Source: Zygnema cylindricum
Taxonomy: Eukaryota > Streptophyta > Zygnematophyceae > Zygnematales > Zygnemataceae
Direction of reading: 5' to 3'
NCBI GenBank assembly: GCA_037447655.1
Contig: JBBHKE010001902.1
Location: forward strand, 9,756 to 71,755
DNA length: 62,000 nt
The position numbers and the translations under genes were made by a program. Within the stretch, counting starts at the first letter, position 1, and each line of letters starts with the position of its first letter. The notes beneath the pieces were generated by a model. The model searched no databases, was not told where the DNA came from, and saw nothing but the letters and a program-made list of their open reading frames with translations. Below are positions 20,496-51,184 of this stretch, one piece after another.

Positions 20496-20567
20496 AAATC
20501 ATAAAGGGATGTCAGTTGACCGATGGACGATGGAATGCTTCCACTCAACTGGTTGTCACTTAGATCT
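20496..20567 (-). CDS. LRR exon 18 (72 nt)
   Basis: One LRR: DLSDNQLSGSIPSSIGQL then TSLYD and the split Leu (TT|). The acceptor is CCTAG and the donor is GTGAGAC. It is the last LRR exon before the long copia-filled intron. The first codon base is A, giving Leu (TTA) with the preceding exon. Confidence 0.85.
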
Positions 20568-22630
20568 CTAGGATACCAAACATTCACACTCAAGCACCAA
20601 CACCCCACCCATATTAATGTGAATTCTTGATGAATACATTCAAAGAGTTTTTATTTAGAGTAAGACTTAAAACAAGAAGAATAAAAATTGGAATTGAATT
20701 TTTGTTTTAACTCATACAATTAACAATTAAATTTGTTTTTCTCCGCAAACCGCACCTTCAGCACCCTCCCCTCTTTTAGCTTTTTCCTGCGTTTTTTTGC
20801 TCGATTTTCCATTTAGAATGTTTATATAGGAAAAGTTCGCAATAACGTGTATTGAACAAAATCAATTTGCGACCCTTGAAATATAAAAAAAATCTTAAAT
20901 TTGGATCAAAATAAAAATAATGTCAAGTTTTATAACAAACGGTATTTCTTTGTTTCATCACTCCCTACTACATACAAATGCCCACAAATTATGAATACAT
21001 ATGCATTTCTACTTCCTATCTCTCGCCACCCTCTTTGCTTTCAGTACTTTGCTTCATGCATGTTATTGCATTGAAAATGGTTAGAAAGAAAAAGGACCCA
21101 AAAGAACAAAAAAAAATAGCCAAACGAATTAAAATTTACAAAAAGAATTTTAAACCTATAGGCTTTTGTAAGAATTCTCCGCATCCCACCACCCTCTCCC
21201 CTTCCTCTATGACGAAAAAAGAAAAACTCGCAAAACGAAACACTCACCCTACTCGCTAAAAATAAAAAAGAAACATATACAATGATTTAATACGGTGTTT
21301 CTATACAACATCATTTCAATCACGAGTCTTTTCCCCCTTTCCCACTTTTTTTCCCCCATTTTCAGTTACCGTTCTATATTTAAACTTCAAAAGATATAAA
21401 TAAAAAAACATATAAAAAAGTTAAGTTTCCAAATAGGAAAACACCTTATCTTTTATAATCAAAAACCTTAAGTATTGCTGATAAAAGATCAAAAGAGAAA
21501 ATTCATTTTGTTTCTCCACATTAAAATTCACAATGTGATTAAAGATCTACAAGTTTTCATTAACAATGTTTTTTTAATATAAAACTACTTATTATAACTA
21601 ATAATCATTATTATTATTGTTTTTTTCGTAGCTACTTCTATTATATAATCAAATTACTAATCAGAAGTAATTGTTATTGTGGTTATTTTGTTATTAATTT
21701 GTATTTATTTGCATAGGTTTTGCACTCAATATCGTTAATTATTATTATTATTCTAAATTTTTATTGATATTACTAATTGTACTTATTAATTTTATTAACA
21801 TTTCACAATATTTATCAATTTTTTGTTAGTTTCAATAAATTTCATTTGTAGGCAACTTTACTTCTACATTACTCACATTTTCATCTGGTGCTGGTTGGTT
21901 TTTCTTTGAAATATTTATTTTTGAGTATCATTTTTACTGATCAATTTTATTTATTATTATATATTATTTATCATTCGTTATTCATATTATTTTTTCTAAT
22001 TTGTTTATGATCGTTCAGTTTTCATTATTTATTATTAAGAACCATTTGTCAACCATTGAATATTTTTTGTTGACATCTATTATAATCAAGGATTTTTTTG
22101 CTAGTTTTGGTTCTTTATTATTTAGAACCATTTGTCAACTATTGGTTTTTTGTTGACATCTATTATTATTATCGTATTATAATCACTATTTATTTAATAT
22201 TTGAATTAGTTTCTTCCTATTATTAATTGCTTAATGTATGTTACTTTTTAAACGTAATATTAATTATTTACAGTTTTTTAATATTAATACTATTACTATT
22301 TATTATTATCGTAATCTAATTATATTTTTCCTAAAATTGTTCTGATTGGTAATACGATTAATTTTCCTGTTATTAAAACAATTACTATTGTCGTCTTGCA
22401 TTCATCTTTGCCATGCAAAAGATCGATTTGGACATTTTCTGTTTCAAGAGCAAAAACTTGAAAATGTTGAAATTTCGTGAAGTAATTGATCTAGTTTTAT
22501 ATGGTTTCAGAAAGAAGTGATTGGAAATCAGTACAAAACGCTTCTTTCGAAAGCAATTAAAAAAAAATAAAAAATTGCTGAAACATAAAAAACTATAAAC
22601 TGTTTTGAAGAATCCAACACTAGCAAAAAA
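20568..22630 (-). other. Intron between LRR exons 17 and 18
   Basis: AT-rich, with long TTATTA-type low-complexity DNA at about 21.55-22.38 kb, including a local duplication of AGAACCATTTGTCAAC at about 22.04 and 22.12 kb. No coding exon seen. Confidence 0.55.
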
Positions 22631-22646
22631 ATCCTTACCGCATATC

Positions 22647-22698
22647 GACCCCCATCCCCACCCCCACCCCTACTCCCACCCCCACCCCTACCCCTAAA
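22647..22698 (-). other. G-rich intronic block (potential G-quadruplex on the sense strand)
   Basis: The plus strand has runs of CCCC separated by one or two bases, so the pre-mRNA strand carries eight or more GGG(G) runs about 230 nt downstream of the exon 17 donor. A shorter equivalent sits at 24,323-24,355 downstream of exon 16. Confidence 0.6.
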
Positions 22699-22932
22699 GG
22701 CAACCTCATAACAAATCATTTACAAAAATATCTATATCTTATAAGAATACTCCTCTACTTTAACCCCTCTTCCTTGCATATATTACTCTCTTTCAAATGA
22801 TCCAAAAATAAAATGCAAGAAGTATTACGAACAAATTATTACTTTAATCTAATATGTGGTGTCTTTTTTTTACAACAATAATTTAGAGGACACTTTTTAT
22901 GCATAACTTAACCATAGTGTCATGTGTCTTAC

Positions 22933-23004
22933 AAGGATTGGAGGGATGTGAGTTGACCGATAGACAATGGAATGCCTCCACTCAACTGGTTGTAATCCAG
23001 CGTC
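22933..23004 (-). CDS. LRR exon 17 (72 nt)
   Basis: Encodes TLDYNQLSGGIPLSIGQL, then TSLQS and the split Leu. The acceptor is TCTCAG and the donor GTAAGAC. The first base is G (TT|G, Leu). Two core residues depart from the consensus (G for S, L for S). It is the tandem sister of exon 16. Confidence 0.85.
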
Positions 23005-24299: not shown

Positions 24300-25980
24300 T
24301 TCAAATCCGTCCCCCTCACTTCGACCCACACCCCCACCCCTACCCCTACCCTTAAACCTTAAGGTAACCCCTTAACAAATCATTCACAAAGATATCTATA
24401 TCTTATAAAAATGCTGCTCTTCCTTAACCTCTCTTCCTCGCATATATTATTCTCTTTCAAATGATCAAAATAAACATGCAAGAAGTATTGCGAACAAATT
24501 ATTACTTTAATCTGCTATGTGGTGTCTTTTTTTTTTACAACAATAATTTAGAGGACACTTTTTATCCATAACTTAACCATAGTGTCATGTGTCTTACAAG
24601 AATTGGAGGGATGTGAGTTGACCGATGGACGATGGAATGCTTCCACTCAACTGGTTGCCAGATAGGTCTCTGTGACATTAAATAGGCACAAACCACCAAC
24701 AGGACCTCCTCTCCCCCCCCCCACAAAGTGCCTTTTGATCAGTATGTGGTACAAAATTGTACACTTACAAAAAACTGAATGCGTTTTACCAGCAAACATA
24801 TGTATATATAGTATATATGTTTAATGTACACTATACATACATACATTACATACATATTGTTCTAAACATAATTGTATCTATATCGTGAAATTGATTATTT
24901 GTTATAGTTGATAGATTTGATCTGAAATTCCATTTGTTTGCACACACTCTCTCTCCTTTGAATACCACACCCCACCCTCCAATTCGGTATTTTCTACGTT
25001 CCATCACTCGCATTTTTATATATATAGTAACATGGAGTAAACAAAAACAATCTCCAAAAATTTAGAATATAAATACATATCCTAATTTTGGATGTGAAAA
25101 AAACCTAATATGTCGTAATCAAGTCAAATTTTAAGCAAAAAAGTACTTGATTTTGTAATCACTCCTATATATAATTATGTATAAGAATATTAAATATATT
25201 TGTATTTTACGGAAAAACTCTTACCACCCTGTTTTTTGCCTTTGATACATTGTTTCACATAGATTAATCTTATCTCAACTGATTATAAAACAAAAAATAA
25301 AAAAAAATGATAAACAAATAAAAAACGAAACAATTACTACTTATTGGCGGAATTAAAGTAGAAATAAAAAATAGATTTCACACCATATGGCCTTTGCCAC
25401 CTCTCCCTCTCTTCTACCCTTCAAGAGCAAGATAACACGTCCCAGAGCCAATTAAGTAAAATAACACTTCCAGAAAAATAGAACGAATCATACACAATTG
25501 TAACAATTCAAAGTTTTCATACCACATCAATATCAGCAACAAACCCCCTCCTCACAACTCATCCTCTCATCACATCACTCAGTTTTCTATAATGAAGATA
25601 AAAAAAGATGTATATGAGAAAGTCTAAGATCAAAATGAAAACACAACTTTTACAGCCATCAAAATCTCAAAAACTGTTGACAAAAAAGAAAAAAAATGCT
25701 TTTGTTCCATTTTCATTAGAAATTTATATTATTTTTTAAAGATATGTATGTATTTACTAAAACTTATAATTAGCGATTTTCATTGTTTATATTAATTAAA
25801 ATAAGTGAGTATATTGCTGTCTCGTTATTACCCTCTCTCCCGCTCACTCCTGCTCCCTCTTCCTCTCGATGTCTTTTTTTCCCACTCCCTTTCCCTCTCT
25901 CACCTCAAACTCTCTCTTTTCTTCTCTCTTTCCCTTTTCCTGTCCCTCCCCCTCTACATTAACAAAAAATCCTTACCACA
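24300..25980 (-). repeat. Tandem duplication unit 2 (LRR exon 16 cassette)
   Basis: Partner of 22,630-24,240. It is collinear, with small indels and an extra C/T-rich tail at 25.83-25.96 kb. Confidence 0.85.
24598..24669 (-). CDS. LRR exon 16 (72 nt)
   Basis: Encodes DLSGNQLSGSIPSSIGQL, then TSLQF and the split Leu. The acceptor is GTCACAG and the donor GTAAGAC. It matches the consensus core exactly and differs from its sister exon 17 mainly at the exposed positions. Confidence 0.87.
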
Positions 25981-26544: not shown

Positions 26545-27159
26545 TCACAGTCTTCTTGAAAATAAGCTACTATTGTATTCTGAGACCTCGGCTACGGGAA
26601 CCGCCATTTGGTTTAGTCGCCTGAACGCCGATATTCTGCCACAATTGGCCAACTTGCCTAATGCTTCACCAAGCGCGACCATTATGTAAAAAAAATATCT
26701 GTAACGCCACTCGTCGTGACTAGCCATGCTTTAATAGCGAGGGGGTATTGAAAATCTATTGAAGCTTTGTCTAAACTTACATCTGCCTTTCCTCTTTTAA
26801 GTTCAAACGAGGTACATCTAGAATTTCGTTGAGCCTTGTGTACCTCTTTTAGTAAATTTGTATGTATCTTTGGTCTTGCGGCGGATTCTTATCGGAGTTT
26901 AAATGAATTTTAATTCCGTTTACCAGAACTAGTTTTTCCTTCATCAGTTATACCTAAAATTAGCTTTATGTCAAAACCGCATTTGCATTTTTCAGGTTTT
27001 GTTTTTGTAGTCTTTTTTGTTTCGATGTAGATTATCAAAATTTAAGGCAAATACTCATTGACAAAAAGCTTTGTATTTTTTTATCGTCAATCATCTATAT
27101 ATATTATCAACTATTATCATTATTGTCAATATTATTTTCAACTAAACAACAAATCGTAA

Positions 27160-27880
27160 AGATCCCAAAACCTTAGAATCCTAAAAACCTTGAAAGTTCT
27201 AAAAGCACTAACAGCTCAAAATAAATTATAAGCCTTTAAAACTTTAAAACCACAACGCGGTAAAATCTTGACCATCTTATACCCTTAGAACCTTTTGAGC
27301 CCAAAAAACACTGCAAACTTTAGAAACTTGAGAAACCATCAAACGTTAGAACAATTAGAAATTGAATGACTTTACAAAACTAAATACCCACAAAACCCTA
27401 ATAATTGTAACAATTGTAAAAACCACATAACTATAAAACTTATCAAACCAAAATACTCAATAAACCCTGCAAAGCCTTCAAACCTTGCATCTCTTAAAAC
27501 CATAAATATTCCTCTGATCCTAAAAACGTTAAACAACATGAAAACCCTCTTAACTCATAAAAAATTACAAGACTTACATATGTCCAAAATCCGTTAGAAC
27601 CCTTCAAACCCTGGAAACCTAAAAAACTTTACAAAACATAAACACCGTAAAACCCTCAAAGCCACACAAAACATTGAAATTGCAAAAACCATAAAAATCC
27701 TAAAAACGATAAAAATCACATAAATTCAGGAACTTGTATAAATCTAAAAACCCCGTAAAAGATTGAAACTCTAAATATCCTCAAACCCTAAAAACCTTCT
27801 AAACAATAAAACCATAAAACCATAAAAATCGATAAACCAGAAAAATCCTAAAAACCATAAAAAATAAAACCTTCAAAACC
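27160..27880. repeat. Degenerate CCCTAAA-like tract
   Basis: About 700 bp made almost entirely of imperfect A-rich units such as AACCCTAAAAACC, CCTTGAAA and CCATAAAA, always with the C-run on the plus strand. It resembles a decayed plant telomere-type repeat (CCCTAAA) without perfect tandem runs. It is paired with 40,545-41,240. Confidence 0.7.
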
Positions 27881-28220
27881 CTCCCTATTTATAACCGAGG
27901 AGCGTGCTATAGTCTTGCGTCTCAAAAGTGTTGTTTGACCTTCATCACTCTACGTTTCCCTCTAAGAAACCCAATTTTTTCCTCTTCAATATTTATAATT
28001 ATAAAATTTGTAATTATTATTATTATAATCATAATCATTAACTATTATTTAAAAAATATATATATTATTTAAAAAAATATATTACTTGTATTTATTGTTG
28101 TTCTCTTTAACAATTTCGCGCTCTTGCTTCACATAGGATATTTCTTTTGAAATAATTATGCCATACCAATTAGGAGCACACTTTCGATGTGCAACATAGG
28201 AATTGTGTCTTGTATCTTAC

Positions 28221-28292
28221 AATTTTTTGAGTGATGTCAGCTGACCGATGGACGAAGGAATAGTTCCACTCAATTGGTTCCAAGATAAATCC
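28221..28292 (-). CDS. LRR exon 15 (72 nt)
   Basis: Encodes DLSWNQLSGTIPSSIGQL, then TSLKK and the split Leu. The acceptor is GTCAAAG and the donor GTAAGAT. It is the copy A partner of exon 6 (41,558). Of the six amino-acid differences between the pair, five fall at exposed beta-strand positions (D/H, S/F, W/E, K/Q, K/T). Confidence 0.85.
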
Positions 28293-28500
28293 CTTTGACA
28301 CCAAACATTCCCACCCCAACATCTCCCCTCTTCACAAAAGTGTCTCTCAGAATATGGTACAAGTTATAAACTAAATAATTGAGAATGCTACTTCACCAAA
28401 CAAATCTAAAGGTTTTATAACCACCATCACAATTGATAAAAAATGAGAAATAATGTTCAATATTAATTACTCAACAAAGCCATAGTATTATGTGTCTTTC

Positions 28501-28572
28501 AAGGTAGAAAGGTTTGTCAATTGACCGATAGAGGATGGAATGCTTCCACTCAACTGGTTGTACCTTAGATAT
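28501..28572 (-). CDS. LRR exon 14 (72 nt) with non-canonical GA donor
   Basis: Encodes YLRYNQLSGSIPSSIGQL, then TNLST and the split Leu. The acceptor ATATCTAAGG context has AG as expected (GTCACAG). The donor position reads GA (CTT|GAAAGAC) where every other exon has GT. The exon may be skipped, which would keep the frame. It lies only 208 nt upstream of exon 15. Its copy B partner survives only as an 18-bp stub at 41,843. Confidence 0.65.
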
Positions 28573-29654
28573 CTGTGACACCAAACATTCACACCCCGTC
28601 AACACTCACCCACTCTCTCCTCGTCACCTGTGGTACAAAGCCATATACTGAAAAAAACGTTTGAGTGTGAATTCTTAATAAATAAATCTAAAAGGTTTCA
28701 TACGAATTCATTCCCAAATCCACCACCACCTATTGTTCTCTATCATAATACTTGATTTTCCATTATTGACATTGTTTTTCAAACACAAAAAGAAAGTAAA
28801 AATGATCAAAATTTGCGCTAGGAAGATACAACTTAAAACATAAGAGCCTCGAATATAGGCGAAAATATATTAAAAGATATCCTAGATTTCAATCTCCAAT
28901 TTTTCATATACATATTTTTTTGTCATTATTATCATTATTCGTTGTTATGATTATTTTCATTAAATCAATAATTTTATCATCATTTTTATTTCTAACTCAT
29001 AGCATAAGTCTCTTTTGGAAACCTCTCCTTTAAAAACCAGTTTTTCCCCACCTCCCTTTCCTCCTTGCCCCTCCCTCTCTATCCCTTTTGCTCCAGCGGC
29101 CAATTATACTAAAACATCCATAAAACCCCATAACACCCTCAAAACCCTCCCTCCACCCTTTCCCCTCCTTCCTCTATCCCGAGGAGAATGCAATCAGTTT
29201 AGATCTCATGGGGCCCCGTCAAGCCTCCATCACGACACACTCCCTCCGCAAAAAACCCTTTTAATATTATTAATCATTATAGTTTTTTTTATTAAATGTG
29301 ATTATTTTTACAACTAATAAGAATTAGTAGTACCTATTAGCAATAGTAATTATTATGGGCTCTAATTTCATGACACTAATAAAAAATATTAGATTTTATA
29401 TATAAATATCTTTCATTATTAGTCTTCCCTCGTAATTATTACTTCAATATTATTAATGACCATTTATTAATTACAATCTTTTTAGTATTATCTATTAATG
29501 TTTATTATTATCTTGTATTTGTTATTATTAACAATAAATTATTATTATTTTTTATTGATTTGTCGTTACTATTTCTTTATTATTTGTTATTATATTATAT
29601 TAACTTATTGCTGATTTTTAGTACTCAACAAAGCCATGGGGTCAAGTGTCCTAC

Positions 29655-29726
29655 AAGTAAGCGAGCGATGTCAGTTGACCAATGGACGATGGAATGCTTC
29701 TACTCAACTGGTTGGTTTGTAGATCT
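29655..29726 (-). CDS. LRR exon 13 (72 nt)
   Basis: Encodes DLQTNQLSRSIPSSIGQL, then TSLAY and the split Leu. The acceptor is GTCACAG and the donor GTAGGAC. An Arg replaces the conserved Gly of LSG. Copy B has lost this exon in a deletion. Confidence 0.82.
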
Positions 29727-29929
29727 CTGTGACACCGACCAGTCACCCCACCAACACCCACCCCCAAATGTTGTCTCCTGACTAGTATACGGTACTCTTT
29801 AAAAACTAAAAAAACGATAGTGTGCGAATTCTTAGCAAACAGATAGAAGGGGGGTTCTATCCACCATCATACTCCAAATAACACTAAAATAAACCTACAA
29901 AAGAAGAAAAAATAAAACGCTAAAACCAT

Positions 29930-30215
29930 ATCCTTGAAAAAATACTAAAAATTCAGAAACGATAAAACCCTCAAAACCTTAGAAATGTTTTAATATCCTC
30001 ATGCGCTAATAACTGTAAAAAAATTTAAAATATAACCAGTTAGAAACCCAAAAACAAATCTATAAAAAACAAATCATAAAACCATAAATAATATAAAAAC
30101 ATATACACCCTTAAAACTCTAAAAACGCTAAAAACCTTATGAAGAAATCCAAAAAACCAACAAACAAAAATACCTTAAAAACCATTAAAAAAAAAATCTC
30201 AAAAACCTCCCTCCA
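29930..30215. repeat. Degenerate CCCTAAA-like tract
   Basis: Imperfect AAACCCTCAAAACC-type units in the intron between exons 12 and 13. Same orientation as the other tracts. Confidence 0.6.
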
Positions 30216-30507
30216 CGTGGTTCCACCTCCCTTTACAACATAGCCTCCCGATTTTGTAGACATTGCCTAGCCTCTATACTTATAGGACTCTATCCAACCG
30301 TCCCCTCTCAAAATTATGAACTTATATCGCTATTTTTTTGTAACATTGAATGTTATTTATTATTTTTAGAAAATATCATTATTATTTTTTTCCCTCCCTT
30401 ACTTCACATAAATCATCTTATTCCAAATGATTAAAAAGTTTCTTAAGTCACACCATTTAAGAGCACACTTTTGATGCACAGCATAGGTACCGTGTCACGT
30501 GTCTTAC

Positions 30508-30579
30508 AAGGATTGAAGAGATGCCAATTGACCGATGGACGATGGAATGCTTCCACTCAAATTGTTTTGAGATAGATCT
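30508..30579 (-). CDS. LRR exon 12 (72 nt)
   Basis: Encodes DLSQNNLSGSIPSSIGQL, then ASLQS and the split Leu. The acceptor is ATCACAG, with a TACTAAC branch point at 30,630-30,636. The donor is GTAAGAC. The copy B partner is exon 5 (42,051). The pair differs at nine codons, six of them synonymous, a sign of constraint on the encoded repeat. Confidence 0.87.
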
Positions 30580-31389
30580 CTGTGATTCCGAACATCAACA
30601 TCAACACCCACTTCCCAAAGTTTCTGCTAGTTAGTATTCGGTAAAGTCTATAGGTTCAAGAAATGTTCTTAGTATATACATTTAGTACATTTTGATCCAC
30701 TGTAACACTTCAAAAAATGATGACTATTATATTTGATATCATGTTTTTTCATTGTTAGGTTGAAACTTTTAACACAATGTCCACACAAAACCATATTTGC
30801 TTGCATATCTCTCCGCCCCCATGCCCGCCCCCATTTATTCTCGCACTGAAAAAAAAAGTCAAATAAAACATTCAAAATTAAAAAGAAAACAAGAAATATA
30901 CACACAGGACATTTTCATTCTTATTTATGAATATTTGTTACTTAACATTTTTTTTGTTTTTTTACTAATTTTACTATTGTTTACTATAATGTTGTATTTA
31001 TTAACAATCATTATCGTTTTATTATTATTTTATAATTACTTGTTATTTACTTTTTAATTGTTATTCTTATTTATTATTTATTATTTACAATTATTTGATA
31101 TTTATTCTCAATCAGTTGTTATTTAATCTATTTTTATTGATTATTATTACTTTTTTTTTTTTTTATATCGTTACATTATTATATTATTATTTTATTATAC
31201 TATTTTATTATTTTATTACTATTGATTATTATTGTTTAGGAATATGATTATCATTATTATTTAATTACATTTATTTGTTATTATTATTGTGCTAGTATTC
31301 AATAGTATTTATTGCTGATTATTACTTGCTCAACATTGCTATTGTTGATTATTATTTACTCAACATTGCTAAAGTGTTTTGTGGCTTAC

Positions 31390-31430
31390 AGTTGTTGGAG
31401 GGATGTTAATCAATTAGTTGTAGGTAATAG
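31390..31430 (-). pseudogene. Decayed LRR exon remnant
   Basis: After a CTTAC donor-side box the plus strand reads AGTTGTTGGAGGGATG, as in intact cassettes, then degenerates. The rest of the exon and its acceptor are gone. The equivalent remnant in copy B is at about 42,907, so the decay predates the large duplication. Confidence 0.55.
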
Positions 31431-31743
31431 ATATAGATAGTGGTTTACACTCTCATATATAATATAACATAAATTACACATTATAGCAATCCCTCAATGC
31501 TTCTAACTTTTACAATATTTATTCCTTCTGTTTATTATTAAATATTACCAGTTTTTTATAGTACCAATCATAAAATCTGAACTTTTTACTTTTAGTTAAT
31601 TTTTAATACTATTTATAACTTATTATTATATATTTATTATAATAATAAAACTATAACAATTTACTATTTATCTACTATCATTCATGATGTACATGGTAAT
31701 CATGTGACTTGATGGGCGACAAAGCCATGATATCATGTGTTAC

Positions 31744-31848
31744 AAATATTGGAGGGATCTTAATTGACCAATGGACCATGGAATACTTCCAATCAACTGG
31801 TTGCCATGTGGTGTAAGTTCGAACATCGGTGGGCTATCAGATAGACTC
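31744..31848 (-). CDS. Long LRR exon 11 (105 nt, 11-residue insertion)
   Basis: Reads SLSDSPPMFELTPHG followed by NQLIGSIPWSIGQL, RSLQY and the split Leu. The insertion lies between LS(x) and the conserved Asn of LxLxxN, at the edge of the concave face. It is a multiple of three and has no stop. The acceptor is GTCCCAG and the donor GTAACAC. The same insertion, with several amino-acid differences, is in exon 4, so it has stayed open in both copies. Confidence 0.8.
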
Positions 31849-32354
31849 CTGGGACACCAAACGTTTACACCCCATCAAACACCAACACCCCAAAGTGTTT
31901 CCTAGTTAGTGAATGTTACAAGTTCAGTCTAAAAAAACTGGAGTGAGGAAACTTTTAGCATACACATGTGAAGGTTTTGTATCCACTATTACACTTCAGA
32001 GAAAAAAATGACCAGTTTTCATTAAATCACGCCAAAAAAAGAAAATAAAAAAACCACCCTTTTCCTCTTGCTCCTCTCTCTCCTCCTCTATTTTCCTCCC
32101 TTTCTCTTCCTCTCAGCCTCGATGACCCTCACCTGGGCATTAAAACCCAAAAGCCCTTCAAACCCCCTAAAAGAATCATCCTCAAAATCCCTCTTTCACA
32201 ATTACCCTCTTCTTCCCGCTACCCTTTTATGAGCACGCCATGTTCCTCCGTCTCAACGAGTCGCATGCCACCATTTTTATATCTCTACCCCTAAAAAATC
32301 TCCCTTTTCCCGCTCAATATTACCAGTTATCATTATTGTTATCATTATTATCTT

Positions 32355-32930
32355 TAATTCCAAAACTTAAAAACCAACAAAAACCTAAAGAACCTAAAAC
32401 CGTAGATTCCTACTCTATAAACCTTTAAAACCCTAAAAACAGAAACCCTAAAAATTCTATAAACGATTAAAAACCTTAGAAACGTTAAAACGCCATAAAC
32501 TTAAGAAAATTTAAAATCCCTCAAAAAATTAGAACACTTGAAAACCCTAAGTACCTTGAATTCCCTACTGTAAAAACGAAAAAAAAACCCAAAAGAGCCA
32601 TATAACGTAAAAACTAAAAAAAATCCCATCAATCCTACTAGCCGTAAAAGCCACAAAACAACAAAAAACCTTGAAACCGTACAATCCTCAAAAACATGAA
32701 AATCCAAAAAATATAAAAACTTTAAAAACCTGAAATAATCTAAAAACCCTTAAACCCTTTGAAACTCTTAAAACTAAAACAATCCTACAATTTCTACGAA
32801 TCCGAAAACCCTAAAATCCTCAAAACCATAAAAACCATTAAAAATATGTAAACCCTAATCTAAAAGCCCTAAAACCTTGAAAATATTCGAAACCATAAAC
32901 ACCATTAAAAAACAAAAACCCTGGAAACCC
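32355..32930. repeat. Degenerate CCCTAAA-like tract
   Basis: Imperfect AAAACCCTAAAAAC units in the intron between exons 10 and 11. Partner tract at 43,935-44,530. Confidence 0.7.
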
Positions 32931-33265
32931 TCCCTCTCTCTATACCCAAGGAGCACGCCATAGCCCACGTCTCCGTAGGCGTTATTTGGCCTCCATTGGT
33001 ATACGTCTCTCAATAAAGAAACATATTTTTCTCCATCTTATAACAATGAATTAACAATACATTAATTTATATCCTTTTAAAAATTGTATCATCGTTAATA
33101 ATTATTTTTAATTGCAATTGTAATAAATATTAGTAATTATTTACTATTATCAATTATTTGCTTCACATAGAATATTTATTTTCAAATCGTCCAAAAAAAT
33201 TTCAAGCCTTAAAATCTGGAGCATACTTTTAAAACGCAACATAGCTTTAGTGTCATGTGTCTTAC

Positions 33266-33337
33266 AAGTATTGGAGGGATTTCAGTTGACCGATGGACGA
33301 TGGAATGCTTCCACTCAACTGGTTTTCAAAAAGATCT
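33266..33337 (-). CDS. LRR exon 10 (72 nt)
   Basis: Encodes DLFENQLSGSIPSSIGQL, then KSLQY and the split Leu. The acceptor is GTCACAG and the donor GTAAGAC. The copy B partner is exon 3, from which it differs at five codons. Confidence 0.87.
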
Positions 33338-39004: not shown

Positions 39005-39948
39005 CCATATGTACACAGCCGAACTACCTTCATGAACAAATCCGACAAATCCTACACCTTTATACGGCCAGAAACCAATTTATCACCATGAGGCACTTAA
39101 GGACAATACACGCACTATTATCTAATGCGTAACAGATAACGGATGTTCTAATGAAAACATTCCATCGACCACCTGTACGATTGCATTCTCTTCCACCAAA
39201 GTTGAGAATATTGTCGGCACTTCGACCACGAAAACCGCTATTTGGTTTAGTCGCCTCCACGACGATATTGTGCTACGATAGTCCAACTTGCGTAATACTT
39301 CACCAAGCCCGACCAGTATCTCAAATTCATATCTGTAACTCCGATTTGTGTGACTAGCCATGCTTTAATCGAGAGGGTAAATTGAGTATATTTTCAAGCC
39401 TGGTATAAATTGACATCTATCTTTTAAGTTTAAACGCAGGTTGGTGCATCTAGAATTTTGTTCACAGTTTGTATATCTAAATTTTCGTTAAGTGTTGTGT
39501 ACCTCTTTTACTTAATTTGTGTCTACCTCTGGTCACGTAGTAGGTTCTTATCGGAAACTAAAAGAATCTTGACTCCTTTTCCTGGAACTAGCTCTACCTT
39601 CATCAGCTATACCTAGAAATAACCTTTTCTCAAAACCGCCTTTGCACAAACTCATTGACGAAAACCTTCTTGTCTTCTTTATTTGCCACTCATCCACATA
39701 TCTTTTGTTCCTTTTGGCCTCTTGTTTGTTTTCGGCCTTTCCTGATCTTTTGTTTTTTCTTTACTTTGGCCTTTTATGGCCTCTCCATCGTTGTAATTAT
39801 TGAGAAGTATCATTTCTAATGTTCATTACAATTATCAGCTATTTCCTTGCTTTGTTTCACATAGAATATTCGTTTCCGAATGATTAAAAAAAAAAATTAA
39901 GACATCCCTATGTAGAGCACACTCTTGATCCGCAACATCGCTGTAGTG

Positions 39949-40030
39949 TCATTAATTCTTTGAGGAATGTCATTTGACTATTGAAATTTTGAATGCTTCC
40001 ACTACACTGGTTGCCAAATAGATATATATG
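39949..40030 (-). pseudogene. Decayed LRR exon
   Basis: The minus strand still shows GGCAACCAGTGTAGTGGAAG and GTCAAATGACATTCCTC, but the core has substitutions, the frame is lost and the GTAAGAC donor is gone (ATTAATGAC instead). Confidence 0.65.
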
Positions 40031-40544
40031 ATAGCGAATACTCACACTTCACCCCCCAATGTGTTCTAGTGAGTAAGCAGTATAAGTTACAGCTGAAAAA
40101 AGTTGAGTGTGAAAATTCTTAGGAAACACATATCTAAGGTTTCTACCCACAATCACACTATCACGCTATAAACATTTTCTTTTGAATCATACCTGGAAAA
40201 TAAAATCTGAAAAAATCTCCTTATCCTCTTGCTCCTCTCTCTACTTTTCCTCTCCCTCCCATTTTTTCCATCTCTCTCATTGCTTTGACGACCCTCTTCT
40301 AGTATTTAAAACCCAAAAAAAAACCATAAATATTTCCTAAAATAATCAACCTCAAAACTCCCCTTCGACCTTTCCTCCCTCATTTCCACTACCCGTTATG
40401 AGCACACCAATTCCTTCTGTCTCAACGGGCCTCTGTTGGGCCTCTATCGCTATACCTCACTCCAGAAAGCATTTTCTCTCCATTTTTTATTACTAATACC
40501 ATATCATCATTAATGACATTGTCATTTTCAATTAAACATAGAAA

Positions 40545-41240
40545 TCTACAAACCGCATAGACCATAAAACCATAAAACCCCAAAAACCCTTGAAAGCCTT
40601 AAAAGCACTAACAACCCGAAAAGATTTATAAGCCTTTTAAAAATCTAAAACCACAATGCGTTAAAATCTTTACCCACTTATACCCTCAAACCCTTAAAGC
40701 CCTAGAAACACTACAAACCTAACAACTTGAGAAACCATTGTAAATTAAAACAATTAGAAATTGGAGTAACGATAAACACTTAAAATACCCAAAAAGTCCT
40801 AATAATCGAAACAATTTTATTAAACCGAAATACACCACAAACCCTGCAAAGCCTTAAAACATTGAAATTCTTAAAACCGTAAAAACTCCTTTTATCCTAA
40901 AAACTATAAAAAAATTGAAAACTCTTTTAACTCATAAAAAATTGCAAGATATGTCTAAAACCCCGTAGAACCCTTGAAACTTTGGAAACCCTAAAAGCAT
41001 TACAAAACCTTAACACCGTAAAACCTTCAAACCCACAAAATACCTCGAGAAAACAAAAACCATAAAAATCCTAAAAACGCTAAAAATCACATAAAATAAA
41101 AAATCACCGTAAAAGCTTGAAACTCTAAAAATCTTCAAACCCTAAAAACTTTCTAAACCATAAAACCATAAAAACATAAAATTGACAAACCAAAAAAATC
41201 CTAAAAACTATAAAAAAATAAAACCCTCAAAACCCGCCCT
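40545..41240. repeat. Degenerate CCCTAAA-like tract
   Basis: Copy B partner of 27,160-27,880, same orientation. Confidence 0.7.
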
Positions 41241-41557
41241 CCTTATAACCGAGCATGCTATAGTCTTCCGTCTTGAAGAGTTGTTTGACCTTCATCACTC
41301 TACGTTTCACGCTAATAAAACCCTTTTTTTCCTCTTTCAATATTTATAAGTATAAAATTTTATTTAATGTTATTATAATCATAATCACTATTATTTATAT
41401 AACTATTATTTTAAATAATTAGATTTTTAAGTATCTATTGTTATTATCTTTAGTAATTTCGCGCTCTTTCTTCACATATGATATTTCTTTTGAAATAATT
41501 AGGCCATAGCAATTGCACACTTTTGATGTGCAACATAGGCATTGTCTTGTATCTCAC

Positions 41558-41629
41558 AATGTTTGGAGGGATGTCAGTTGACCGATGGACGAAGGAATAC
41601 TTCCACTCAATTGGTTCTCAAATAAATGT
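41558..41629 (-). CDS. LRR exon 6 (72 nt)
   Basis: Encodes HLFENQLSGSIPSSIGQL, then TSLQT and the split Leu. The acceptor is GTCAAAG, with a TACTAAC branch point at 41,687-41,693. The donor is GTGAGAT. Partner of exon 15. Confidence 0.85.
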
Positions 41630-41842
41630 CTTTGACACAAAACATTCACACCCCAACATTTCCCCTCCTCCCAAAATTGTCACCTAGTTAGTATGCGATA
41701 CAAGTTATAAACTAAAGTAATTGAGACCGTTCCTTCAACGAACAAATCTAAAGGGTTTGTACCCACAATCACAATTGAGAAAAAGTGATAAATATTTTTC
41801 AATATTCATTACTCAGATATGCCATGGTGTCATGTATCTTAC

Positions 41843-41860
41843 AAGGTAGAAAGGGCTGTC
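41843..41860 (-). pseudogene. Truncated LRR exon stub (18 bp plus donor)
   Basis: AAGGTAGAAAGGGCTGTC follows a CTTAC donor box and matches the 3' end of exon 14. It then joins sequence equivalent to 30,316 in copy A. The deletion breakpoint lies inside the exon. Here the donor is the normal GT. Confidence 0.75.
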
Positions 41861-42050
41861 TTTCTCAAAAGTATAAACTTTTATTGTTATTTTTTTGGAA
41901 CACTGAATGGTATTTATTGTTTTAGTAAATATTATTATTAATTATTGCTTCACATAGAGCATCTTATTCCAAATGGTTAAAAAGTTTCTTAAGTTATACA
42001 AGTTAGGAGCACACATTTGATGCACAAAGGTACAATGTGACGTGTATTAC

Positions 42051-42122
42051 AAGGATTGAAGGGATGTAAGCTGGCCGATGGACGATGGAATGCTTTCACT
42101 CAAATTATTATGAGATAAATCT
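42051..42122 (-). CDS. LRR exon 5 (72 nt)
   Basis: Encodes DLSHNNLSESIPSSIGQL, then TSLQS and the split Leu. The acceptor is GTCACAG, with a TACTAAC branch point at 42,178-42,184. The donor is GTAATAC. A Glu replaces the conserved Gly of LSG. Partner of exon 12. Confidence 0.85.
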
Positions 42123-42906
42123 CTGTGACACCAAACATTCACACCGCATCAACATCCACTTCCCAAAGTGTCTACTAGTTAGTATGCGGTAAGGCTCATA
42201 GGTTTAAGAAACGATTGAGTTCAAATTCTTAATAAATGCATTTAGTGTATTTTTGTCCACAATCACACTTCAAAAAAAAATGATGATTATTATATTTGAT
42301 ATCATGCTTTTGCATTGTTAGGTTGAAACTTTGCACACACAAGATCCACACAAAACCATATTTGCTTGTATATCTCTCCGCCCCAATGCCCGCCCTCCCC
42401 CTTTTTCCCGCATTGAAAAGAAAAAGTCAAATATAACATTCGAAATTAAAAGATAAATAAAAGAACACATTTACGACATCCATTGTTTACACACCACACG
42501 GCTACTTCATTCTTATTTAAACCTTTTTTATTTTTTTTTCTAGTTTTGCTATTGTTCACTATTAACTAATATTTATTAATAATCATTATCGTTTCATTGT
42601 TACTTTACAATCACGTGCTATTTACTTTTTACTTGTTATTTTTATTAAGTATTTATTGTTTACTATTATTTGGTATTTAGTATCAATCATTTGTTATTTA
42701 TTCTATTTTTATTCATTAGTATTTGTTGTTTTTTACTCTTATTTCATTATATTACTTAATTATTTTATTATTTTATTATTATTGTTTATTTTGTTATGAT
42801 TATTATTATTATTTAATTATATTTATTAGTTATTCTTTTGCTATATTCATTAGAATTTATCGTTGATAAATAGTTAATCAACATAGTTGTAGTGCTTTGT
42901 GGCTTA

Positions 42907-42945
42907 AGTTGTTGAAGAGATGTTAATCGATTAATTGTAGTAAAT
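42907..42945 (-). pseudogene. Decayed LRR exon remnant, copy B
   Basis: AGTTGTTGAAGAGATGTTAA after GGCTTA matches the remnant at 31,390. Confidence 0.5.
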
Positions 42946-43316
42946 AGAAATAGTGGACTACACTCTCATACATAATACATATAAATTATACATTAGAGCA
43001 TTAGTTTATGTTTTTAAGTCATCACCGATTATTACTTTTACCCTTTATGCTTCTAACTATTACATTATATATTCCTACTGCTTATTGTTAAACACTACTT
43101 GTTTTTAATGTTAAACACTACTTGTTTTTTATTGTACCAGTCATAAAACTTCAATATTTTATATCTACAAAATCTTTAATACTGTTTATAAGTGATTTTT
43201 ATATATTTATTATAATAAGAATATGCAACAATCTACTATTATTTACTATCATTCATTACTAACATGTTCATTGTGTTACTTGATATGCAACAAAGCCATG
43301 ATATCATGTGTCTTAC

Positions 43317-43421
43317 AAATATTGGAGGGAACTCAGTTGACCAATGGACCATGGAATACTTCCACTCAATTGGTTACCATATGGTATAGATTCAAACTTT
43401 GATGGGCTATCAGATAGACTC
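43317..43421 (-). CDS. Long LRR exon 4 (105 nt, 11-residue insertion)
   Basis: Reads SLSDSPSKFESIPYG followed by NQLSGSIPWSIGQL, SSLQY and the split Leu. The acceptor is GTCCCAG and the donor GTAAGAC. Its insertion aligns without gaps with that of exon 11, and SP, FE and the P before H/Y-G are kept. The IPWSIG Trp is shared by this pair only. Confidence 0.82.
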
Positions 43422-43934
43422 CTGGGACACCAAACGTTCACACCCCATCAACAGCCACCCCCCAAAGTGTTTCCCAATTAGTGAATGTTACGCTTCCGAC
43501 TAGAAAAACTTGAGTGAGAAAACTTTTAGCAAACGCATGTACAGGTTTTGTATCCACTGTCACACTTCAGAGAAATTGACAGAAAAAACGATGAACAGTT
43601 GATATTAGATCACGCCAAAAAAATAAAGCCACCCCTTTCCTCTTGCTCCTCTCTCTCTTCCTCTCCATTTTCCTAACCTTTCACTTCCTCTCAGCCTCAA
43701 TGACCCTCGCCTGGGCATTAAAACCCAAAAACCCTTCAAAACCCCTAAATAAATTATCCTCAAAATCCTTTTCCACGATTACCCTCTTCCTCCTGCTACT
43801 CTTTTATGAGCATGCCATATTCCTCAGTATCAACGAGCCTTATGTCGCCACCATTTTCATACCTCTACCCCTAAAAAATCTCTTTTTTCCCCCCTTTAAT
43901 ATCACCAAATATCATAATTATCATCATTGCTATC

Positions 43935-44530
43935 TTTAATTCCAAAACCTAAAAACCAGCAAAACCCTAAAAAACCTAAAACCATTCCTAAAAATCGTAA
44001 ATACACTAAAAACAAAAAACTCTATAAACCTTTAATTCCCTAAAAACACAAACCCTAAGAATACATTATCGCTTAAAAATCTTAGAAGCGTTAAATTGCT
44101 GCAAACTTCAGAAGATTTAAAAGCCCTCAAAAAATTAGAACACGAAAACCCTAAATTCCTTGAATTCCCTACTGTAAAAACAAAGAAAAACCTAAGCCAT
44201 ATAACGTAAAAACTTGAACAAATCTACAAATCCAACAAGCCCTACAAACCGTAAAACCCATATAACAACAAAAAACCTTGAAACCGTACAATCCTCCAAA
44301 TCATGAACATCCAAAAATCATAAAAATTTTAAAGATCTCAAAGAACCTTAAAATCCCTAAACCTTTTGAAACTTTTAAAACTAAAAAATCCTACAATTTC
44401 TACAAATCCGAAAAACCCTAAAACCCTTCAACCATAAAAAACTTTAAAATTATAAAAACCCTAATCTACAATTCCTAAGACCTTGAAAACCTTCGAAACC
44501 ATAAAAAAAAAAAACCTTCGAAACCCTCCC
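43935..44530. repeat. Degenerate CCCTAAA-like tract
   Basis: Copy B partner of 32,355-32,930. Confidence 0.7.
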
Positions 44531-44869
44531 TCTCTCTATACCCAAGGATCAAGCCATAGCCCCCATCTCAGTGGGCGTTGTTTGGCCTCCATTGCTAAAC
44601 GTCTCTCAACAAAAAAACCTTTTTTACCCCATATTACAACAATAAACTATTGTTTTATTATTTTATAAATCATTAATATGCATAATTGCTAATTATTGTT
44701 TTTAACTGCAATTGTAATAAATATTAGTAATTATTTAATATTATCAATTACTTCATGCCTTTGCTTCACATAGAACACATCTTTTCAAATCGTCCAAAGA
44801 ATTTTCAAGCCTTAAAAATTTGGAGCACACTTTTGAAACGCAACATAGCTTTGGTGTCATGTGTTTTAC

Positions 44870-44941
44870 AAGTATTGGAGGGATGTGAGTTGACCGATGG
44901 ACGATGGAATGCTGCCACTCAACTGGTTGTCAAATAGATCT
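44870..44941 (-). CDS. LRR exon 3 (72 nt)
   Basis: Encodes DLFDNQLSGSIPSSIGQL, then TSLQY and the split Leu. The acceptor is GTCACAG and the donor GTAAAAC. Partner of exon 10. Confidence 0.87.
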
Positions 44942-46468
44942 CTGTGACACCGAATATTAACACCCCACCAATACCAGCCCTCAAAAGATGTATTAACACC
45001 CCACGAATAGCAACCCTCCTTGTCACTGTGGTACAAAGTCATGCGATAAATAAAAAGTTGATTGCGAATTTTTAGTAATACATCTGTAGAGTTTTTTTGC
45101 TATCTTGAATCCATCTCCTACCCTCCATTCCATCTTTTCTTCCATCATATCATTTACTTTTCCATCACTAACATTTCTTTAAATGTATAACAAAATCATG
45201 TAGCACAAAAGAAAGATCAATTTTACTCTCCAATTTTTACTTCTGAAAAGGTACGAAAAAACCATCTGAACCATCTGAGCTGGTTACCTATTTCTCAATC
45301 CACGGCTCTCGGATGATCGTCCCTTCTACCGAAGCATAAGTCAATAAAAAATGAGCAACCAATTTTAACCGCAAATTTTTTTGACTTCTCGTAAGTCATG
45401 CAAATTTTTTTGCGCAAAAAAAAGATGATTTGAAAAAAACCTTCATGTCGCAAACCTACAGCATTTTATGTGGTTTTTTTTCCGTTTTAATTCTATTTAT
45501 AAAGCTTTTTTTTATAATAACTATAGCACCACTAAGTATGCTTGCCAATTGTTCAATACAAAAGTAAATTTTCTAATTCAATATGGTTTTATTTGTGTTA
45601 TATTTTTTTGTATTTTTTTCACAATTGCGTTTCCAAATTTGTATTTCCGGTTCTCGATATTTTCATAGAAATTAGACAATATAGGATTTTCAAGGAGCTA
45701 TTGTATGCATTAATTAGGTAAGGATTATGATTTTTAGATGGGGCACAGAACACGGCAGTTTTTACAATACATAAATTTTCTTATCATTTGTTTCACAATT
45801 ATATTTGTTCTTAAAGATACTAGTATCATTTGTTGCTACTCTTATTTTCAATAAATTTTTTTTTAATGAATAATTTTTATTAATAGCCTTTATTATTCTT
45901 ATTATAGTAGATTCTATTAAAACTACTAAAATTATTTGCCCCTGAAGAGCACCCCAGAGATCTTCTACCTTAAAAATACTCCCCCTAAAATTTCCTTCTT
46001 GCCTCGACAACGCCCCTCTAGCTTTCCAAACAACCACAAAACTACCAAAATAAATGATAGGGGTCGTCTAAAATAACACGCACAAAAACCCTACATCTAG
46101 ACCCTCCCCCCACACTCCCCCCACCCTCACATCCTTCTTCTAACCTCCACAAGCACGCCGTAGCCCTTGTGTAGACGGGCCCGATCAACCGTCCATCTTT
46201 AAACCCCCGTTTAGAAAAAACTTTTTTTTCTCCATTCAATATTATGAATGTTATTGTAGTCGTTATTATCAAGTAACTATTATTATTACAAATTATTAGT
46301 TACATTTATAATTTATATTAGTTTGAGAAATTTTCATAAACAAAATTCATTTTCCTCCTTTGATTCGCATAGAACATTTATTTTCAAAAAGAAAAAAAGG
46401 TAAGCCGTACCACCTCAGAGCACAACTTTTCATACGCCGCAACATAGCCAGCGTATCATCTGTCTTAC

Positions 46469-46540
46469 AAGTGTTGGAGGGATATCAGTTGACCGATGGA
46501 CGATGGAATACTTCCACTCAACTGGTTGTAAGATAGATCT
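46469..46540 (-). CDS. LRR exon 2 (72 nt)
   Basis: Encodes DLSYNQLSGSIPSSIGQL, then ISLQH and the split Leu. The acceptor is GTCACAG, with a TACTAAC branch point at 46,587-46,593. The donor is GTAAGAC. Partner of exons 8 and 9; the Ile in ISLQH is unique to this trio. Confidence 0.87.
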
Positions 46541-47479
46541 CTGTGACACCGCACGCTCCCCAACCCTCCACTCCAAGTGTCTTCCAGTTAGTATGTGGTA
46601 CAAGTTATACATTTAGAAAAAAATAAGTTTAAATTCTCATAAATGCAGTGGGTCTTTATCCACCATCAACATTACATTTATATAACTACTATTAAATTCT
46701 ATTTTTAGTTAACAAAATGGAACTTTGCGCACGCAAAATCCATTCAAACATCAAAAGGTAAACTTTCGTTCCCTATCCTACCATTTACAAATTCAGAAAT
46801 TTTCTCAACCACGCACAACCAGTGACTATAAATAGTTATTATTTATAACCAAAAATTTAACATATTATTGTTAAGTGTAAAGATAATCCTACTTCCCTCC
46901 AAGAACACGCCATTACTCTCTCTCTAGAACAGTCTCCCTTTCGCTCCCCCTTGCCTAAAAAAATACTTTTCCCCTCCTTCCCCTCCCCTTTTCTCACTCT
47001 TCCTCTCCCAACTTTGACTCAACGACCCCAGGCTGGCCTTTAAACCCCTATGAAACCCCAAAAAAAACCATAAAAACCCGAAGGGGAAACCACCATAAAT
47101 ATAGCCTGCCTCCATCTTTTTTCCCCTCCCTCTCTCTACTCCTCACAAGCACCGCACAACACTCCATTTCTACATGCCGGAATGAATATCATGATGAATG
47201 TAATTAATCAATTTATTACTGATCGTGTTTACTTTTTTATATTTTTAGCATCTTTTTCGTTATTTTTATGAGATATTATTTGCTTAAATTCAAAAGTACA
47301 AGTTTTAACTAATAAAACTTATGAAAATCAGTTTACAATTATATGATATATATTTTTGGTCCTAAGAACATTAATATTAAAGATGCATAGTAATTGCTAC
47401 AATTGTTTTTTAACAAGTTATTCTTAGAGCTTATTTTATTATGATTAATTCTTTTGAATAATATTGATATAAATACGAT

Positions 47480-48944: not shown

Positions 48945-50290
48945 TAAGCTTGTCGAAGGGAAAGAAAGCTATAGACCCAAAACGGGTATTGGCAACAAAA
49001 ATGAGTGCATTTGACAAGGTTGTGAAACATAAGGCACACGTCGTTTGTAAAGGCTTCTAGAAAAAACACGAGTATGACTATATCGAAAGATATGCACCGG
49101 TGGTGAAATTCAAATTTTAGAGAATGATTGTTGCAATTGTCGTAGCTGGGAGAAAACATGTCCACCAGATGGACGTAGAGACAACGTTTTTAAACAGAGA
49201 TATAGAGGAGGAGGTTTATATAAAATAATAGAAAGGTGTGGTTTCACGAGAAGGGAAACGATGGCGTTACCGAAAGTCTTATTTTGGACTGGAGCAAGCG
49301 CCACAAACATCGTTCTTTCGCTTGCATAAAAGTGTTAACTTGTAGGGACGATTTGAGTGTTTCGAATTTAAATAAAGAAGGAGAGCAACATGTACTAACT
49401 TTTGTTTATGTGGACGAATACATGATGATTTCGAATAGCTTTGAGAAACTTGACGAATTGAAGGGTTTTTCACGCCTTTATTTTAAAGTAACGGATCTTG
49501 GGGACGTCACTTACATTTTTGGGATAGAGGTGATTCGTCACACAAACGGTGACGTTAAAACTCTTCAGCGCAATACTTATAGAAGGGTTAACCCAGTTTG
49601 CTAAGTTTGAAGCGGAACCTATTTCTACGTCGTTGGATCTCAAAATGCAATAACAGAAATGTGAGGAGGAAGAGACAGTCGATGTGATATATCGGGAGGC
49701 AATCGGAAGCTTAATATACTTGAACGTGGGAACTCGGTCAGATACCTCGACGGTCGTATCTGTTGTGGGTCGATAGTGCCACGCATCGGAGAAGTTTCCT
49801 TAGGAGACTGTGAAAAGGATACTTCGCTATTGGGCTGGAAGTGTTGATATGGATTAGTTTTTAAATCAAAAATAGTATTATTGGAGTGAGTTAGATTTGT
49901 GATGCAAATTGGAACGACGACTTTGACTCTTCAAAGTCAACATCTGGCAACGCGATTGTATTTGGATTTGGCGGGGCGTCAGTTTCTTAGAATTCACACC
50001 TCTAGCCAACCGTGGCCCAGCAGTGGCCCAAATGTGACCCAACTGTGTTCCAAATGAGGCAAAATTTACGGTGACGTGTCATACATCTAAGTTGTGGAAA
50101 ATCCATTTTTTCTCAATTGCATAAACAATCGTATACAATGGCATTTCGTGCATGATTTGATCGCAGCAAAGGAAGTTAAATTTTTGTACGTGTCGACGTT
50201 GTAGGAATCTACGGAGTGCAATAGCGTATCACGCTTTGCTGTGAGGGAGACCCAAATTAGGGTTGTTCTGATTTGAAGCCGATTCGCATA
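48945..50290 (+). pseudogene. Decayed copia RT-RNase H fragment, related to the 4.4-10.3 kb family
   Basis: The plus strand shows FDKVVKHKAHVVCKGF, then RKHVHQMDVETTFLNRDIEE, VVSREGKRWRYRKSYFGLEQ, a VDEYMMI region in place of VDDFLMI, DANWNDDFDSSKSTSGNA (RNase H) and the conserved RPKLGL end near 50.26 kb. Stops and frame changes are frequent. A purine-rich CAGAGGGGGA near 50.29 kb may be its polypurine tract. It is antisense to the LRR gene. Confidence 0.82.
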
Positions 50291-50454
50291 CAGAGGGGGA
50301 ATGGTGGGTTACATAGTGGAATCAAGCGTCTAATTGTTTGGCGCTTTGTCAGACTCGCGGGAATGTATTGAGTTTGTTGTGGAGATTGGTGTTTCAGTTC
50401 GCGTTTGTCCTATTTGTACCGTACTGATTGCGATGATGTTTTAAGTTGCCTAGG

Positions 50455-50636
50455 TACACCTTGAATCGTTATTAGCGTAGAAGTTTTTTTAGCGTATAGT
50501 AATAATTACCGTTATTAATGCTAATTGGGAATTTGGAATTAGGGTTTTTATATAGTATGGATAATTCAATTTGAGAATTTGAAAAAAAAGGGTACCTTAA
50601 ATAGCATTCAATGCGCTAATAACGATTCACCGTGTA
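50455..50636. mobile_element. MITE, same family as 38.8 kb
   Basis: 182 bp. The left end TACACCTTGAATCGTTATTA and the right end AACGATTCACCGTGTA are near-perfect inverted repeats, with TA at both ends. The interior contains AATTAGGGTTTTTATATAG. Non-coding. Confidence 0.85.
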
Positions 50637-51112
50637 CTTGTTTCGGTAATAGTACCTTAGGTAGAATCGTTGGCGTCCATTGATTGGTGTCCATTTGCGT
50701 GTTCAATGTACTTTTTGACAATGTTGTCAAGAGTTCGAATTTAAACTAAGTGTTTAAGATGTATTGAGAGACAGTTAAAAATATTATTATTATAAGAAAA
50801 CTTTCCAATGAAATATGTTGAATCTTGTAAGACTATTTTCTTGGATATGTGGTGAAATCTATCCTTCCACATATGTAAAAATGCATCTTCTTCGTGTTTT
50901 CGATCCATTATTGCCACTGTTATCATCATAATTGTCATTATTATTATTATTATTATTAGTAATTATTATTTTTGTATTTTATTATTAAAATTCTTTATTT
51001 CCCGTTGTTCCACAAATAATTTTTTTGTTAATTGATTAAGAAAAAAAATTAACTATACCCATTTAAAGCACACTTTTGATGCCCAACATAGCCATAGTGC
51101 CATGTGTCTTAC

Positions 51113-51184
51113 AAGTATTGGAGGGATGTGAGTTGACCGATGGATGATGGAATGCTTCCACTCAAATGGTTGTCACCTAGATCT
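51113..51184 (-). CDS. LRR exon 1 (first visible, 72 nt)
   Basis: Encodes DLGDNHLSGSIPSSIGQL, then TSLQY and the split Leu. The acceptor is GTCACAG, so at least one exon lies further upstream. The donor is GTAAGAC. It is the most 5' LRR exon I can find. His replaces the usual Gln of NQL. Confidence 0.86.

Follow-up and report, generated by a model that had tools for sequence, protein, structure and literature searches.

Is an array of small exons, each encoding one repeat of a protein, a working gene that gains and loses its parts without harm, or the remains of a gene? This question is raised by a 62,000-nucleotide (nt) stretch of DNA from Zygnema cylindricum (Streptophyta, Zygnematophyceae; GenBank assembly GCA_037447655.1, contig JBBHKE010001902.1, positions 9,756 to 71,755), analysed as a whole and here called the window. 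Its minus strand carries, at 51184-20496, an array of exons with one leucine-rich repeat (LRR) each, which forms the middle of a larger gene. We give a probability of roughly 0.6 to the reading that this is an intact single long gene for a secreted or cell-surface, plant-type LRR protein with exchangeable phase-2 exons.

We modelled the whole gene from the sequence on the minus strand at 55268-12454, where it spans 43 kb and comprises 21 exons and 639 amino acids, or 615 amino acids when LRR exon 14 is skipped. In 5' to 3' order the model starts with an exon for a signal-peptide-like N-terminus and one for a cysteine cap, continues with the 18 LRR exons and closes with a cysteine-rich, weakly EGF-like exon that carries the stop. 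The exons and their associated features are as follows; LRR exons are named in the text by their higher coordinate, and blocks A and B are two duplicated segments described below.

55334..55340, minus strand: TATA-like box TATAAGG, located in the sequence ~65 nt upstream of the ATG
55172..55268, minus strand: exon 1, ATG and hydrophobic signal-peptide-like N-terminus (MAAATITAIALMLACHVAFVMG...), signal peptide by eye
54942..55047, minus strand: exon 2, encodes a two-Cys N-terminal cap (...CDSYNFTCDNSGRVYKV), from the gene model
51113..51184, minus strand: LRR exon 1, 72 nt
46469..46540, minus strand: LRR exon 2, 72 nt, block B
44870..44941, minus strand: LRR exon 3, 72 nt, block B
43317..43421, minus strand: LRR exon 4, 105 nt, block B, 11-residue insert before the conserved Asn
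42051..42122, minus strand: LRR exon 5, 72 nt, block B
41843..41860, minus strand: LRR exon stub, 18 nt, remnant of a lost exon, counterpart of exon 28572, GT donor kept
41558..41629, minus strand: LRR exon 6, 72 nt, block B
39954..40025, minus strand: decayed 19th LRR exon, frame open, AG and GT both lost (nhmmer E 1.3e-8; 8.1 bits in the protein scan)
36488..36559, minus strand: LRR exon 7, 72 nt
35525..35596, minus strand: LRR exon 8, 72 nt, tandem duplicate of exon 9 (units 95.8% identical), N gap between them
34796..34867, minus strand: LRR exon 9, 72 nt
33266..33337, minus strand: LRR exon 10, 72 nt, block A
31744..31848, minus strand: LRR exon 11, 105 nt, block A
30508..30579, minus strand: LRR exon 12, 72 nt, block A
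29655..29726, minus strand: LRR exon 13, 72 nt, block A, without counterpart in block B
28501..28572, minus strand: LRR exon 14, 72 nt, donor GA not GT
28221..28292, minus strand: LRR exon 15, 72 nt, block A
24598..24669, minus strand: LRR exon 16, 72 nt, tandem duplicate of exon 17
22933..23004, minus strand: LRR exon 17, 72 nt
20496..20567, minus strand: LRR exon 18, 72 nt
12454..12808, minus strand: last exon, completing the LRR domain, with a Cys-rich cap, an EGF-like region and the TAG stop, from the gene model and Pfam scan

A splice-aware scan and a DNA profile confirmed what had been proposed in an earlier reading of the sequence alone (the sequence-only reading), namely 18 single-LRR exons, 16 of them 72 nt long, whereas 43421-43317 and 31848-31744 measure 105 nt. 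All 18 are in phase 2/2, each opening on the third base of a codon shared with the preceding exon and closing on TT, bases one and two of the codon shared with the following exon. Their frames are open throughout and the exons, being symmetric, all join in frame, in agreement with the modular, frame-neutral character ascribed to them. At 17 of the 19 junctions the split codon encodes Leu; the first junction has Val instead, and the final one Phe. The position table gives the exon consensus in the register xLxxNxLxGxIPxxIGxLxxLxx. In both 105-nt exons, 11 residues are inserted between LxLxx and the conserved Asn.

The protein profile scored 42.4-54.0 bits on the 18 exons, whereas 20 shuffled versions of the window (bases permuted inside 500-nt blocks) reached 5.4 bits at most, and the DNA profile returned them at E values of 4.9e-24 to 3.2e-15; these scores arise partly by construction, since the two profiles were built from all 18 and from 15 of the exons, respectively. 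Scores so far above those of the shuffled windows indicate that the array is not a chance pattern. Splice sites had been described as intact throughout, and this is so for 17 of the 18 exons, which have both AG and GT; the exception is exon 28572 (28572-28501), with a GA donor. Its body is intact, the adjoining intron is 208 nt long and reading through the donor meets a stop within four codons; the exon is probably skipped in splicing.

Joined together, the 21 exons give one open frame from an ATG (context GCCATGG) to the TAG stop. All 20 introns of the model end in AG and 19 start with GT. The junction between exons 1 and 2 is in phase 1, exon 2 ends in phase 2 and the last exon starts in phase 2. 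Exon 2 and the last exon are each present as a single copy in the window. The LRR domain closes in the last exon with GVSSNYLTGPI, and the nearest AATAAA after the stop is at 11871, ~580 nt downstream.

We compared the predicted protein to known domains and structures. Only LRR families exceeded their cut-offs in a Pfam scan of the 615-residue model (LRR_1, 225 bits over 15 stretches), and the scan returned no kinase, ROC or COR domain. Plant LRR receptor ectodomains were the top matches in the Protein Data Bank (PDB), with GSO1 first, among the best 60 of 394 matches. The plant-type LRR motif reads LxxLxLxxNxLxGxIP, and the exons conform to it by the position table, by Pfam LRR_1 and by the GSO1 match. 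The plant-like LRR type suggested earlier is thus upheld, and the suggested extracellular location agrees with the N-terminus, which by eye resembles a signal peptide. By eye, no hydrophobic or transmembrane stretch follows the signal region, and the stop comes after the Cys-rich region. As modelled, the gene is neither an LRR receptor kinase nor an LRR-ROCO gene. Its product would contain about 17 LRRs, each on its own interchangeable exon, and is probably a secreted recognition or adhesion protein; a role in immunity itself is plausible, though less likely than not.

We also looked for relatives with peptide patterns, in scans that detect close relatives only. Six patterns fitted 35 stretches in prokaryote genomes, with one relative, a Chloroflexota protein; its LRR consensus is another one, by eye it has a region resembling ROC-COR, and its match is confined to the LRRs. 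In viral contigs 2, 1 and 14 stretches fitted patterns, none of them a relative.

Duplication, loss and divergence of the exons

Self-comparison of the window reveals several rounds of duplication, one of which produced two blocks.

26585..35798, no strand: block A, segmental duplication, from self-comparison
39219..46748, no strand: block B, segmental duplication, aligned pieces 72-86% identical to block A, from self-comparison

Each block has pieces that are absent from the other. Block B lacks ~1.8 kb carrying exon 29726 and all of exon 28572 except its last 18 nt. These 18 nt survive as the stub at 41860-41843, still followed by a GT donor, which indicates that the stretch was lost from block B by deletion and that GA at the block A donor is probably derived. 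Block B has kept the decayed exon 40025, in a stretch for which block A yielded no counterpart. The two 105-nt exons correspond to each other as copies, one in block B and one in block A, and their shared 11-residue insert therefore predates the block duplication. Repeated gain and loss of exons at the locus, as put forward by the sequence-only reading, is therefore borne out by the duplicated blocks, the decayed exon and the stub.

Two tandem duplications are less diverged, 24669/23004 (units 86% identical) and 35596/34867 (units 95.8% identical), and by this measure look younger. A tree of the intron flanks recovered six duplicate pairs, and a trio with exon 46540, with support of 0.89 to 1.00. 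The assembly has a gap of 154 N at 48134-48287 and another of 10 N at 35183-35192, between exons 34867 and 35596. Because the shorter gap lies between the most similar units, these two exons may be alleles of one, which the assembler would then have set in tandem.

We propose that unequal recombination between homologous introns would duplicate single exons and multi-exon blocks, and that deletion or splice-site mutation would remove exons, with the reading frame surviving each event. All exons are symmetric, so the frame stays open after each gain or loss. Selection would hold the LRR scaffold and leave residues of the concave face free, giving binding surfaces of changing length and chemistry. 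What the sequence shows is the modelled gene structure, the duplicated and lost exons and the contrast in selection; we infer recombination as the cause, transcription of the gene, secretion of its product, ligand binding and a recognition role, either immune or in cell-cell or matrix adhesion.

Across 11 representative units, identity is 0.77-0.84 in the 20 nt beside the exon and falls to ~0.2-0.5 past 160 nt, while the exons average 0.83. In seven duplicate pairs there are no indels in 537 nt of exon, the exon pairs having been chosen with equal length, versus 35 events in 2100 nt of flank. Flanks of 150 nt were used for this count and for pair divergence, which is 4-18% over the duplicate pairs and 7-18% in the seven pairs other than the 95.8% pair. 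The seven-pair set omits 35596/46540, avoiding a double count of one event.

Within the exons, change is concentrated at the five x positions of xxLxLxx, which line the predicted binding face. The ratio of nonsynonymous to synonymous divergence (pN/pS) over all pairs of 16 of the 18 exons, both 105-nt exons being excluded, is 1.21 at these positions and 0.19 at the others. In the seven duplicate pairs, where the 105-nt pair entered without its first four codons, nonsynonymous changes number 16.5 of 80.8 sites at the exposed positions versus 10 of 280.3 elsewhere (Fisher p 7.6e-6), and the pN/pS comparison at the other positions gives 0.036 versus 0.180. The five positions were taken from general LRR structure and fixed together with the test, yet after the translations had been seen, so that the choice was not blind. 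Constraint acts on the LRR scaffold, while binding-face residues change at a rate close to neutral.

Positive selection in the pair 23004/24669 was considered and not upheld. The exon differs at 13 of 72 sites and the intron at 39 of 498 (Fisher p 0.008), in a comparison that used 250-nt flanks, which overrun some unit ends and so overstate intron divergence there. Ten of the 19 binding-face nucleotides differ in this pair (binomial p 1.5e-7); among the eight pairs given this test, one other is raised (28292/41629, 7 of 19, p 0.012) and the remaining six have p values of 0.53 or more. However, among the 1343 ungapped windows of 13 nt in the 1.5-kb block there are further patches with 9-10 mismatches (around 24001, and at 23037-23041 in the intron adjoining the exon), which makes the binomial test untrustworthy. 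For the binding face of this pair we claim near-neutral change only.

Introns and the rest of the window

The introns had been called AT-rich, and the GC content of the gene region is indeed 25-42% per 1-kb bin across 20-55 kb, but the rest of the window is similar at 25-47%. On the transcript strand G exceeds C in 33 of the 35 1-kb bins at 20-55 kb. The two exceptions, at 49-51 kb, contain plus-strand Copia fragments. The G excess ends at 55 kb, the predicted gene start, and across the four bins at 55-59 kb the skew ranges from -0.01 to -0.71. We take this strand skew as a hint of transcription.

The first 60 nt past the donor are fairly alike across the 11 representative units (identity of 0.77, 0.72 and 0.63 per 20 nt; for example GTAAGACACATGACAC). 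By eye, the 3' splice sites of the LRR exons appear rich in G and T and lack a clear pyrimidine tract. Exon-specific pairing of flanks, as in Dscam, was examined and rejected: an exon's own flanks pair no better than those of different exons (permutation p 0.31, 0.06 and 0.74 for 40, 60 and 150 nt). With 40-nt flanks the energies are -18.1 kcal/mol for own pairs, -17.8 for cross pairs and -14.8 for shuffled sequence, and we put the excess of own and cross pairing over shuffled down to composition and shared ancestry.

Several mobile elements and repeats lie in and near the gene. The last intron holds one of them.

13881..19935, minus strand: disrupted old Copia-type element within the last intron, end direct repeats 73-76% identical, pol fragments between them

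Fragments similar to Copia reverse transcriptase and RNase H are present at 49236-50261 on the plus strand, in the first LRR intron and antisense to the gene (tblastn; Pfam RVT_2 29.2 bits, cut-off 31.6). A Copia-type long terminal repeat (LTR) retrotransposon occupies 3467-10333 on the minus strand, with gag and pol over several separate open reading frames followed by a second LTR-gag piece; 3496-4890 and 8945-10333 are 97.3% identical, as in a tandem or recombined Copia-type element. In the second intron, at 53400-54650, degenerate repeats akin to TTTTTAGGG extend by eye over ~1.2 kb, as read on the transcript strand, and we take them to resemble plant-type telomere motifs. The window gave no Rfam match at the gathering score, and no tRNA was found in it.

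Alternative readings of the locus

Several points weigh against an intact gene for a secreted LRR protein. The gene is a model drawn from genomic sequence, and low-complexity repeats add to its strand skew. One exon has a dead donor and one is decayed, so slow death of the gene is possible. The EGF-like tail of the sequence-only reading is weaker: six Cys in the last exon have EGF-like spacing by eye, but Pfam EGF (PF00008) scores 14.1 bits, under its cut-off of 21.5, and the structure prediction for this exon is too poor for use (mean predicted local distance difference test score, pLDDT, 44.9). Finally, nonsynonymous divergence at the exposed positions (0.204) is not significantly above the neutral expectation from synonymous sites (0.159, p 0.57), which gives no support for positive selection.

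Some of these points would fit a decaying former gene, in which exon bodies persist at a locus no longer expressed or needed. The GA donor at 28572, the loss of both splice sites at 40025, the reduction of a third exon to an 18-nt stub and the old Copia element in the last intron speak for decay. Yet all 18 frames are open, and the start, the caps and the stop are present. Purifying selection is seen outside the binding face, both in the pN/pS of 0.19 and in the seven duplicate pairs, whose flanks have diverged by 4-18%, and the exons that were lost are ones whose absence preserves the frame. Decay of the whole gene is thus unlikely. A partial assembly artefact, in which the units of two alleles or collapsed repeats were set in tandem, is suggested by the N gap between the 95.8% identical units and by the second gap of 154 N; it is very unlikely as an explanation of part of the array, since the other seven unit pairs are 7-18% apart in their flanks and blocks A and B have different losses.

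It is also possible to see the array as an isoform generator, spliced in many combinations so that one locus would provide a repertoire of binding surfaces. All 18 exons are symmetric, with similar splice signals and long introns, and brown-algal ROCO genes offer a precedent (PMC11378527). Simple duplication equally predicts symmetric exons, however, and the test for exon-specific flank pairing was negative, which leaves this reading quite improbable. We hold it rather unlikely, too, that the gene encodes a secreted recognition protein whose repertoire is continually renewed at a single locus by the birth and death of single-LRR exons, with exon sets that differ among individuals and are perhaps spliced in varying combinations. 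If true, exons would here play the part that whole genes have in the evolution of plant receptor gene clusters, and they would do so in an extracellular protein of LRR-EGF architecture without a kinase or ROCO tie.

In its duplicate blocks, mutated donor, relic and stub, the locus preserves a legible history of how LRR exons arise and disappear, and it illustrates in a real sequence why genes of symmetric phase-2 exons tolerate change. Should exon number vary among individuals, the locus would provide a compact natural test of exon turnover versus gene turnover as the source of recognition diversity.

Known genes with one LRR per exon

The sequence-only reading knew of no description of a plant-like, extracellular protein of this kind with an EGF-like tail. 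The novelty of the combination was not supported, since rice LRR-kinases and brown algae share the 72-nt exon layout and modular LRR exons occur in Slit. A secreted LRR-EGF exon array outside animals was not found described in searches of an open-licence library, with subscription papers mostly outside that scope.

Slit is a secreted LRR-EGF protein with animal-type LRR caps and many EGF domains. The Zygnema gene differs in its plant-type LRRs and its single weak EGF-like region. It resembles Slit in having modular LRR exons, which are also described for human NLR genes (PMC6642158). In Tetrahymena, tandem arrays of uniform 90-bp phase-2 LRR exons have been reported, with ectopic recombination as the proposed cause; the uniform tandem exons and their phase are shared with the gene described here, whereas the exon length, 72 and 105 nt, is not (PMC6564038).

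Brown-algal ROCO genes have 72-bp phase-2 LRR exons with exon shuffling, alternative splicing and positively selected concave sites, and Saccharina japonica has in addition 15 non-ROCO sequences with 72-bp LRR exons, most with LRR motifs only (PMC11378527). The Zygnema gene is similar in its 72-nt, phase-2, one-LRR exons and in its variable concave-face sites, while our model, unlike the brown-algal LRR-ROCO proteins, has no ROC-COR domains in the Pfam scan. The register also differs, LxxLxxLxxLxLxxNxL in the brown-algal exons versus a start at xLxxNxL here, as compared by description only (PMC11378527). Brown-algal LRR receptor kinases of independent origin are mentioned as well (PMC8307928).

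The layout seen here is that of the rice LRR-kinase genes of complex structure, which consist mostly of 72-nt units in phase 2 with one LRR each, their introns cutting the first Leu, or the residue in its place, of xxLxLxx; exon duplication was proposed as their origin (PMC3050792). Our gene has the same 72-nt one-LRR phase-2 exons with the intron at the same leucine position. In contrast to the rice genes, it has no kinase in the model, no transmembrane segment by eye and a Cys-rich EGF-like end, and its 18 LRR exons extend over 31 kb, where duplications can still be traced and some exons are dead. Thus, the predicted exon layout is one already known from plant receptor genes, its register is of the plant type, and the gene as read here belongs with the known one-LRR-per-exon genes.

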